Shown here piece after piece: positions 26,423 through 32,838 of a stretch of DNA of 32,838 nucleotides. This stretch comes from Candidatus Poseidoniales archaeon. Lineage in GTDB: Archaea; Thermoplasmatota; Poseidoniia; Poseidoniales; Poseidoniaceae. The stretch covers positions 1 to 32,838 of the forward strand of contig DUDM01000013.1 of NCBI GenBank assembly GCA_012959275.1, written 5' to 3'. A program made the translations under genes and the position numbers. Under the pieces are notes generated by a model. The model was not told the origin of the DNA, ran no database searches, and saw nothing but the letters and a program-made list of their open reading frames with translations. Numbering within the stretch: the stretch's first letter is position 1; the number at the start of each line of letters is the position of its first letter.

Positions 26423-28909
26423 TCATCGACTAAACAATTGTTCGAGGCCACATTTCGGACAATCAACCAATACTTCGCTAACTCCTTGAGGAAGTTGTAC
26501 TGCGAAGGCCTGACCACAGGAACTGCAAGTTCCCTTTGAGCCAGAAGGCTTTGCTGCCGGTTGCTGTTGCGTAGTTTTTTGTTGAGGAACACTGACGCCG
26601 CCACTCTCTGAGGTTGAAATTGAAGGTACATTTTTCTTGACTTGACCAGGCTCCTCATCAACAAATAATGCCGCTGCATCTAATGCCGCAGCCTGTTGTG
26701 CTGAATCCAACGTTCGAGAAGTAGTTGTAGCGCCACCTGCGCCTGCCATAGCAGCAAACTCAGCATCTGCGCCGGCTCTAGAACTGGCTGGTGAAGCAAA
26801 CCCTGCGTTGGGGTTTGCCTGTGTTCCATCACCATAAAGTCGCTTCAATTCAGCCTGCTTTGCAGCCTCAGCCTTTTGCTCTTCAGTCATTTGTTGAGAA
26901 CTTTCACCGAGGCCTGCAAGAACCACGCTCTTTGCGAAGAATGAAGGTTTTTGAGTCTCCTTCACATGGTTCATTCTGACAACAGTTTCTTCATGGGAAA
27001 GACCATGTGAAGCCAATAATTGGCGAGCCATTCCCATCTCTTTTTGTCGCCACATGAAGGCACCTGCCCCAGCGCATATTACGAGGATTGCAATAACCGT
27101 CATCACAGTACCCATAATACTAGTTTTAGGAGCACTTTCAACATTAACAGTAAATGGAAATGAAGCTGTATTCCCGCTAGAATCTACCACATTCAAACGA
27201 ACTGATTCTTCCCTAACCTCTTGGAAAACAACATTTTGAACAGGCCCGCTTAATTCTGCATCATTCCACTTGATGCCGTCTCCATCCAAATCAGTATCAA
27301 GGTCAAAATCCCAACCATAAGTCAAGGTTGAATCATCATCCCAACTATCACTTGCGGCGTTTGATGCATCGAATACAACAACTTTTCCGGCAACAGCCGT
27401 TTCAGGAATGTTGACCTTGCTTTCATCAATTATCGGTTCGGTATTATCTACTACCTCGATCTCCAATTCTGTTCTAGCGGAATTTCCAGAAACGTCAGTG
27501 GCTTCCAATACCAAAGTATGATTGCCCAAAGAAGTCCAGCCTTTAGTCCAAACTTCATCAGAACTAACCTCGACTCCATCCAGACTCCAACGCTTACCAG
27601 CAATAATGTGGTCATCACTAACCTGAGCAGTAAATTCTACCATTTCGCCAACCGGAGCAAGAACCTGACCAAGGCTATTTGAACCTGTATTATGCACAAT
27701 TAAAACTGATGGATTGACTACATCAACAACGCTAATCTGATGACTAGCCTGCGCCTTTGCTCCGGTTGGAGTTGTTACTGTCAACAATACGCGATGACTA
27801 CCAGGGGTATTCCATGAAGTGCTAACTTTCCAGCCGGTTTTATCGACATCATTGTCAATATCCCCATCATTATCGGTATCCTCATCTAAATCTAAATCCC
27901 ATTCCAAAATTTGTATCTGACCTTGCCGATTAGCAGTAGATGTAGCATCAAACTCCACTGATTGCCCCAGCACAGCAGCATTTCCATCTAAGTCATCAAC
28001 TATCATCGGGTCCACGATAGGGTTAATTTCAACCTTTATCGAAACTCTTGATTCAGAAGAACCATCTCCGCCACCGACTGGAGTACCCTCATTATCGACC
28101 ATCAGGAATAATGGTTGGCCATCGTATTCTTGAGTCACGGTCCACAGCAAATTTGTTTGCTGCGAAAGTGAAAGCATTGAGGCCCCAGGAATATGGAAAC
28201 TTCCGCTTCCTTGGTTCAAGTAACTAGTTCGATGTGATTGATTCATCAAATATATATCTGGCATTCCTTGCATTGGCCATGCAGTTATGGAAATTTCACT
28301 CCCCGCATCCAAAGTTAATTCCTGAGAGCCTAGTATCTCCTCGTGGCTTCCCGAGTTCAATACACTCAAGCCGTTGAATGCCGTCCAATGTGAATTTTGA
28401 ACTTCATTTAACACAATTGAAACTGACGACGTAGAACCGCCCATATCTCCCTCATCACCATCATTATCATGGTCAAGGTTATCAAAAACTAAACGGAATT
28501 CTTCGTATTGGTCATTCGCATCAGGGCTCCAATGGAATGAATATGTGCCAGTTGCAGAAAGTATCGAAGAGTCTTCAACAGCGTGAAGGTGACTAAAGCC
28601 ACCAGCATAGGCATCGAATACATTATCGAGCATGAACATCAAATCGATGGCATCATCCGAAATATTAATTTCCAATTCCAAGACACTATTCGATGATACC
28701 ATGCCAATATCATAGATTCTGCATTGGCCATCCTCAACTTGGAAATTGCTCAGTCCTGAGGTTGAAACGGCAGTACAAACTACCGCATCTCTACCACTCG
28801 CTTCGACTGGTGAAACGGTCAATACGAGTGAAGAAATGAGCAGTAAGGCCAAGGCCAAATGGCTGCGCATATTTACGGCTACTCTCGCTTTCATTTGAAG
28901 CAAACCCAT
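26423..28909 (-). CDS. PKD-domain surface protein with transmembrane helix and cytoplasmic zinc ribbon
   Basis: An 828-aa type I membrane protein. Signal peptide about residues 14-38, cleaved near VEASG. An N-terminal beta-rich domain (about 40-290) is followed by three PKD/Ig-like modules (about 300-590) with acidic Ca-binding-like runs (DLDEDTDNDGDIDND, DLDTDLDGDGIKWND). A transmembrane helix lies at about 597-617. The cytoplasmic part is about 210 residues: a helical segment (SHGLSHEETVVRM, then a Glu/Lys/Ala-rich coil), a disordered Ala/Gln/Ser/Pro linker, and a C-terminal zinc ribbon CSSC-x19-CPKC. Exterior sensing coupled to an internal zinc-binding module is inferred, not shown. One PKD linker shares an 87.5%-identical 64-nt stretch with the zinc-ribbon gene at 31781. 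Start 28909 has no Shine-Dalgarno site but a TAAATA box about 26 nt upstream. Confidence 0.88.
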   Translation of the reverse strand: MGLLQMKARVAVNMRSHLALALLLISSLVLTVSPVEASGRDAVVCTAVSTSGLSNFQVEDGQCRIYDIGMVSSNSVLELEINISDDAIDLMFMLDNVFDAYAGGFSHLHAVEDSSILSATGTYSFHWSPDANDQYEEFRLVFDNLDHDNDGDEGDMGGSTSSVSIVLNEVQNSHWTAFNGLSVLNSGSHEEILGSQELTLDAGSEISITAWPMQGMPDIYLMNQSHRTSYLNQGSGSFHIPGASMLSLSQQTNLLWTVTQEYDGQPLFLMVDNEGTPVGGGDGSSESRVSIKVEINPIVDPMIVDDLDGNAAVLGQSVEFDATSTANRQGQIQILEWDLDLDEDTDNDGDIDNDVDKTGWKVSTSWNTPGSHRVLLTVTTPTGAKAQASHQISVVDVVNPSVLIVHNTGSNSLGQVLAPVGEMVEFTAQVSDDHIIAGKRWSLDGVEVSSDEVWTKGWTSLGNHTLVLEATDVSGNSARTELEIEVVDNTEPIIDESKVNIPETAVAGKVVVFDASNAASDSWDDDSTLTYGWDFDLDTDLDGDGIKWNDAELSGPVQNVVFQEVREESVRLNVVDSSGNTASFPFTVNVESAPKTSIMGTVMTVIAILVICAGAGAFMWRQKEMGMARQLLASHGLSHEETVVRMNHVKETQKPSFFAKSVVLAGLGESSQQMTEEQKAEAAKQAELKRLYGDGTQANPNAGFASPASSRAGADAEFAAMAGAGGATTTSRTLDSAQQAAALDAAALFVDEEPGQVKKNVPSISTSESGGVSVPQQKTTQQQPAAKPSGSKGTCSSCGQAFAVQLPQGVSEVLVDCPKCGLEQLFSR

Positions 28910-31780: not shown

Positions 31781-32473
31781 ATGCAGTTAGAATGTCCAGT
31801 ATGTGCAGAACAGATTCCTGCTTCCAGTGAGGTTTGTCCAGTTTGTGCAGAGCCAACCAGTTTCTATGGAACAACAGGATTAGACGCTGATGATGGAGGA
31901 ATTGAATGTCCAGTTTGTGCCGAAGTAATCGACTTCTCCTCTGATGTTTGCCCTGTATGCGCCGAAGCAACAGGGTTTGGCGAGGCTGTTCCTGCGGGTG
32001 GCATTGAGTGTCCAGTATGCGCTGAAGTCATCGAACCCTCGTGTGATGTGTGCCCAGTATGCACAGAGCCAACCGGTTTCACAGACATGGGATATGTCGA
32101 TGATAGCATCGAGTGTCCAGTATGTGCAGAAAATATTCCTTCAGCGAGTCAAGTCTGTCCAGTTTGTGCAGAGCCCCTCGAAATGGTAGATAATACCGAA
32201 CCCATGATTGGTGAAAGCAAGGCCGAAATTCCTGATTCGGCTGTTGCCGACACCTTGATTCTCGACGCTCCAACTGCTGCTCCCGAGACTACGGATGCGG
32301 CTATGCCACCTTCCCATTCAGAGCACGACGAAGTTATGAGTGCCGATGATGAGACCTGGGATCTTGTCAAAGACAGCAACAACGTCGCTGATATCGAGTA
32401 TTATCTAGAGAATTATCCAACTGGGAAGTATTCAATTCCAGCCAAACTGAAACTGCGGCAATTGAGCCGCTGA
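31781..32473 (+). CDS. Tandem zinc-ribbon protein (four repeats) with PKD-like insert and helical tail
   Basis: A 230-aa protein from the preferred start. Residues 9-133 (ORF-track numbering) hold four copies of a C-x2-C-x10-C-x2-C ribbon (CPVCAE...VCPVCAEPT), spaced 38, 34 and 35 residues apart; copy three has an extra Cys. Residues about 138-165 (VDNTEPMIGESKAEIPDSAVA) match a PKD linker of the 26423-28909 protein, at DNA level too. After a Thr/Asp/Ala-rich stretch the last ~40 residues (WDLVKDSNNVADIEYYL-ENYPTG) resemble the short helical repeat W-x-V-x-x-S-x(n)-F/Y-L-x-x-YP-x-G found beside many caspase-like and TPR proteins. Start: the ORF track uses 31769, but GAGGG lies 5 nt before ATG 31781. 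No enzyme domain is seen; an adaptor role is inferred. Confidence 0.82.
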   Translation: MQLECPVCAEQIPASSEVCPVCAEPTSFYGTTGLDADDGGIECPVCAEVIDFSSDVCPVCAEATGFGEAVPAGGIECPVCAEVIEPSCDVCPVCTEPTGFTDMGYVDDSIECPVCAENIPSASQVCPVCAEPLEMVDNTEPMIGESKAEIPDSAVADTLILDAPTAAPETTDAAMPPSHSEHDEVMSADDETWDLVKDSNNVADIEYYLENYPTGKYSIPAKLKLRQLSR

Positions 32474-32648
32474 AAGTAGTTTGAAATCATTCGTAATCGA
32501 GGAATCAACCCTTGCAACACCCACGAGTGAGACGTATGTTGCATGGGTCCCATCCAACACCCGTTAGTTGCATGGGGACCCTTCCAATTGATTTGAAGTA
32601 CCAGACGTTCATAGATACACAAATTAAGTAAAGACAATACAGGGAACC
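32474..32648 (+). promoter_or_regulatory. Spacer with repeated words upstream of the right-edge lipoprotein gene
   Basis: A 175-nt gap without a gene. CAACACCC occurs at 32515-32522 and 32555-32562, and GTTGCATGGG at 32538-32547 and 32567-32576. The first GTTGC faces a GCAAC at 32514-32518, so the block (about 32511-32580) combines direct and inverted repeats and may be an operator. ACAAATTAAGT (32622-32632) is placed about 17-27 nt before the ATG as a TATA-like element. Confidence 0.4.
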
Positions 32649-32838
32649 ATGAAACGAATTAAACCTCTCCTCCTTTGCTCACTTCTCGTCCTTTCATCTC
32701 TATCGGGTTGCATTGGAACCGATGAGCCAGATGTGGAAAGCAATCCCCAAAAAGAAGATTCGACTGAACTTTCCAAATGGACCACCTACTATGCAGTCGA
32801 TTTGAGTGACCTTCCTGCCTGCAATACCGACTCAATCG
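32649..32838 (+). CDS. Putative lipoprotein, 5' part only (runs off right edge)
   Basis: This gene is missing from the ORF track because it is open at the window edge. From ATG 32649 there are 63 codons without a stop. The start is MKRIKPLLL, with a hydrophobic core and lipobox LSGC at about residues 18-21, followed by an acidic mature start (IGTDEPDVES). A signal-peptide-bearing, lipid-anchored outer-face protein is the best reading. AGGGA close to the ATG could be a weak ribosome binding site, while an AT-rich box further up also fits a leaderless mRNA. The visible part does not allow a family assignment. Confidence 0.75.
   Translation, partial: MKRIKPLLLCSLLVLSSLSGCIGTDEPDVESNPQKEDSTELSKWTTYYAVDLSDLPACNTDSI

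Follow-up and report, generated by a model that had tools for sequence, protein, structure and literature searches.

An in-frame segment of a zinc-ribbon gene in a Poseidoniales archaeon, probably copied from an opposite-strand PKD surface-protein gene

We asked how a stretch of coding sequence belonging to an extracellular protein could come to lie, in the same reading frame, inside the gene of an intracellular one. The window (the whole 32,838-nt stretch of DNA that was analyzed) carries both genes. The first, on the minus strand (26423..28909), encodes an 828-aa PKD-domain surface protein with a signal peptide-like stretch (residues 17–35) and a TM segment (601–619). The tract of interest, residues 487–507 (27389..27451, minus strand), comprises the end of one Ig/PKD-like domain and the first strand of the next. 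Since it falls after the signal peptide-like stretch and before the TM segment, it is predicted to be outside the cell, as the initial annotation had proposed. The C-terminus of the same protein, on the presumed cytoplasmic side, has a CxxC...CxxC zinc ribbon-like end (weak Pfam match). The second gene, on the plus strand (31781..32473), encodes a protein of 230 aa in which four double CPVC zinc ribbons are followed by an Ala/Pro linker and a short helical tail. This protein has no hydrophobic segment, in keeping with the intracellular location claimed for it, and its length is correct given a start at the ATG at 31781; a longer ORF of 234 aa (four codons more) is broken by a TAG in the sister species G165.

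The near-copy described in the initial annotation was reproduced by alignment. Positions 32186–32249 (plus strand) and the reverse complement of 27388–27451 match without gaps at 56 of 64 bases, the initial 17 being identical, and share a reading frame (the zinc-ribbon gene has VDNTEPMIGESKAEIPDSAVA, the PKD gene VDNTEPIIDESKVNIPETAVA); the inner ends of the two segments are 4,734 bases (~4.7 kb) apart. Searched at the DNA level, the whole of the own genome (1.92 Mb, 77% complete) gave the pair with E = 8.5e-17 and no third copy. The same codon is used for 14 of the 15 residues common to both peptides, with ~6.4 expected from codon usage. When codons were drawn according to usage with both peptides fixed (n = 100,000), the mean was 43.8 ± 2.2 matches (maximum 53), and no draw reached 56. 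The claim of a copy at the DNA level was thus borne out: because identity reaches synonymous sites, the two sequences point to homology through copying and not to a mere common motif. An explanation by a common PKD-family motif, or by convergence under codon bias, could appeal to the V-D-N-T-x-P of the tract, which we take to be like common Ig/PKD linker wording. The codon-usage draws speak against this, as does the lack of any other such segment in the own genome; within the family, the PKD gene of G165 alone matches. We see practically no chance that a motif is the answer, and the objection that the initial annotation had raised against itself, a common family motif with biased codons, is excluded by the codon-level identity and the lineage-specific presence of the segment.

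Comparison with related genomes indicated the direction of copying. The window is collinear with its counterpart in the sister species (G165:C33) over ~32 kb at 91.9% identity. The initial annotation had suggested checking zinc-ribbon orthologues, and three out of three were without the segment (L014 of G165, the syntenic sister; L012 of G168; L013 of G167). The empty site is intact in all of them: the orthologues read ...CAEPLEM-ETSTP/EAPTP/EDPAP-APTAAPE..., and the window reads ...CAEPLEM-VDNTEPMIGESKAEIPDSAVA-DTLILD-APTAAPE.... The PKD orthologue in G165 has the same tract (VDNTKPTIDESKVNIPETAVA), and diverged but homologous PKD tracts are found in G164, G167 and G168. Relatives of the PKD gene occur in 147 of the 171 family genomes, including all 21 high-quality ones, in contrast to the zinc-ribbon gene, which is confined to the window's genus. 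Because the orthologues lack the segment, the G165 PKD gene has the tract, and a family-wide gene is set against a genus-confined one, these comparisons identify the PKD gene as the source and the zinc-ribbon gene as the recipient, as the initial annotation had supposed, and they place the insertion on the window's own branch. A single genome, a Poseidoniaceae (marine group II archaea) MAG that is 77% complete, has this insertion.

The reading that we favor for the insert is a length of exactly 63 nt, or 21 codons (32186..32248, plus strand; residues 136–156 of the zinc-ribbon protein). Global alignment with the sister yielded an insertion of precisely this length at 32186, and position 64 of the alignment, which also matches, is the initial G of the next native codon. 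Local alignment left window positions 32187–32266 opposite 14 bases of the sister, and the net gain of the recipient relative to the sister is 66 nt. The 18 nt 3′ of the insert (32249..32266, plus strand; D-T-L-I-L-D) match, by eye, the sister's native ETSTP codons (GAAACCTCCACTCCT) at nine of 15 bases, plus 3 nt extra, and the donor continuation at seven of 18; they are probably either native linker that has been altered or filler from the repair. An exact 10–13-mer search found no source for 17 of them (32250–32266) within the window. The further claim that protein similarity continues for ~15 residues (FDAS/LDAP) did not hold up, as the donor 3′ flank and the empty site agree at 5 of 24 bases only and APTAAPE is native linker, present in the orthologues. 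The sequence is native from GCTCCAACTGC onward, and the LDAP similarity is therefore coincidental or marginal.

What was moved had been called a module piece. The tract is PKD-derived, as this wording implies, but it is not a folding unit: it consists of an inter-domain linker plus one strand, and Pfam detects no PKD domain in the zinc-ribbon protein, so a whole domain was not transferred. The insert lengthens the linker behind the four zinc ribbons and ahead of the helical tail. In a structure model that is poor overall (mean pLDDT 50), this linker is the lowest-confidence part (~35 in the insert region), as in disordered stretches, and the model would place the insert in a disordered Ala/Pro linker. 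Its effect is most likely a longer, neutral linker with no new function.

We then considered the age of the copy. It differs from the window PKD gene at eight positions and from the G165 PKD gene at nine, and the two PKD genes differ at five. Polarized with the G165 PKD gene, five of the eight changes fall on the zinc-ribbon copy, one falls on the window PKD gene, and two can be placed either way. Seven of the eight alter amino acids. Synonymous differences between copy and donor number one in 14 sites and nonsynonymous differences seven in 49, an N:S ratio that shows no difference from neutral (Fisher p = 0.67); by these counts the evolution of the insert appears indistinguishable from neutral drift and indicates no function. 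Neighboring genes of the window and G165 have a pS of 0.24–0.30, save one 97-codon gene at 0.12. At 0.24–0.30, the chance of one synonymous difference or fewer is 0.05–0.12, and the chance of eight or fewer total differences in 63 is 0.02 at pS 0.24. Because of these probabilities, the copy probably arose after the window's species and G165 had split, in agreement with its absence in G165. The term "recent" is thus apt insofar as the copy probably postdates the split from the sister, and misleading insofar as it is old enough to carry eight substitutions.

The recipient gene has a history of its own. Its pS is 0.32 to G168 and 0.51 to G167, and its immediate neighbors are mostly at 0.6–0.9; between the window and G168, the directly adjoining end of the CBS gene has a pS of 0.85 and the MBL gene 0.77. 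Between G168 and G167, all three genes (zinc-ribbon, MBL and CBS) have an ordinary pS of 0.42–0.50. Because the pS of the zinc-ribbon gene to G168 is far below that of its neighbors while the comparison of G168 with G167 is ordinary, an exchange between lineages of the genus probably swapped this gene, not long before the window and G165 diverged; the boundary is sharp and lies at the gene start. The insert was probably added after this exchange.

We think it likely that the segment arose by templated insertion, from the PKD gene on the same chromosome into the zinc-ribbon linker after the split from G165, and that it was tolerated and has been drifting. Following that split, the linker region would have suffered a break or a stalled fork, mended by copying ~63 nt from the opposite-strand PKD gene 4.7 kb away; the copying may have gone through templated end joining or a template switch dependent on microhomology. 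The outcome would be an in-frame inverted copy in the recipient and an unaltered donor; the 21 new residues would have been tolerated because the frame was kept, with drift thereafter. Templated insertion accounts for the inversion, the retained donor and the net gain of sequence. Consistent with it, the source tract itself is retained in both the window and G165, and relatives (G165, G167 and G168) have an uninterrupted pre-insertion site. The junctions have a 1-nt G in common, with TCGA four bases 5′, and demonstrate no mechanism signature, the ancestral site being known only via relatives. Counting against this reading, the eight mismatches would also be compatible with a donor allele of a different strain instead of the own chromosome, and it does not account for the 18 nt past the insert.

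The initial annotation had spoken of a recent copy or gene conversion, and only the copy survives. Ectopic homologous conversion between two partly similar genes would agree with the DNA-level similarity and with the retention of both copies 4.7 kb apart, but it requires homologous flanks, which were not found: the donor flanks match the empty site at 7 of 20 and 5 of 24 bases. There was also no earlier homologous stretch in the recipient, the three orthologues having empty sites, and conversion is hard to square with the net gain of 66 nt. We regard it as highly improbable; because the donor and empty-site flanks are non-homologous, templated insertion or illegitimate recombination fits better. 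Could the tract instead have been taken up as DNA of another cell (a related-strain PKD allele or an unsampled paralogue) and integrated by illegitimate recombination? The 8/64 mismatches, the evidence for inter-lineage exchange of the recipient gene itself and the 77% completeness of the own genome all give this some weight, and one informative site puts the copy with the G165 PKD gene against that of the window. Two informative sites, however, put it with the window PKD gene, most of the polarized differences fall on the copy's own branch, and there is no other close source among the 171 family genomes (nor any better donor in these or in the own genome). We therefore judge a foreign template unlikely, though worth keeping in mind. 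An assembly chimera in the MAG might be suspected from the occurrence in one genome only and the position of the insert 590 nt from the contig end; we consider it very unlikely given that copy and donor differ at 8/64 sites, the reading frame is intact, and collinearity with the sister extends to both sides of the insert.

Two further candidates were rejected. For an in-frame mobile coding repeat (of the Rickettsia palindromic element kind), the own genome has the donor and one copy only, and the only other match is the G165 PKD gene. For the template/variable pair of a diversity-generating retroelement, three of the eight differences lie at a donor G, T or C and not at template adenines.

Templated insertion and illegitimate recombination both have known parallels. 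In Acinetobacter baylyi, short ectopic segments integrate without full homology by homology-facilitated or short-patch illegitimate recombination. That route was shown in a transformable bacterium; in Poseidoniales such a pathway would be hypothetical. Homology-facilitated illegitimate recombination is cited in PMC5312590, and our literature search on the full name "short-patch double illegitimate recombination" returned nothing. At yeast double-strand breaks, templated and inverted insertions have been documented (PMC11724301). As in our case, short copies from elsewhere are found at the repaired site, some of them inverted, and microhomology is the guide proposed in that study. The yeast insertions are experimental, and the local foldback ones are mostly 5–34 bp; the archaeal case is an evolutionary inference, 63 nt long, with a source 4.7 kb off and little junction microhomology. 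Template switching in yeast (PMC8604942) likewise produces a multi-residue protein change for which adaptation is not needed. Those events replace bases and take place between inverted repeats that already exist, whereas here the sequence is new and there was no prior inverted repeat. A literature search combining Poseidoniales with PKD found nothing.

Rarity was assessed in 345 kb of the own genome, with direct repeats checked gene by gene in part. Apart from the pair described here, the near-copies in this sample came from a tRNA-Leu pair, direct repeats (within a gene or nearby), Asp-rich repeat proteins and long stretches shared by paralogues. There was also one 72% match of 75 nt; leaving this aside, we found in the 345 kb no other pair of similar identity that was short, non-tandem and in-gene. 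As an instance of errors in DNA copying that alter a protein, the case is clean but small. It would be a well-resolved case, from an uncultured marine archaeon, of a protein lengthened by a short templated insertion: the donor, the recipient, the empty sites and the direction can all be seen. It shows that one step is enough for part of an extracellular protein to end up in an intracellular one. Its importance is limited by the single occurrence and the neutral-looking drift. A much broader reading would have Poseidoniales regularly gain protein segments by frequent short in-frame inverted intragenomic copying, with exchangeable genus-specific genes, the zinc-ribbon gene being named as an example, as hot recipients; we give this little credence.

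Finally, we noted several features of the neighborhood. The zinc-ribbon gene was not found in G164; there the CBS-domain protein (L008 1498–3048) carries the helical tail of the zinc-ribbon protein (ETWSMVKDS...LKLKQLSR) as a fusion, and part of the repeat-rich linker is masked as N. In G166 (L009 1006–1764), an unrelated 252-aa protein carries, close to the C-terminus, a single CPICAE double zinc ribbon, which resembles the fourth ribbon of the window protein. Collinearity with the sister stops abruptly just past the zinc-ribbon gene (window 32530–32838), and a lipoprotein-like ORF starts in this same stretch, near the contig end.
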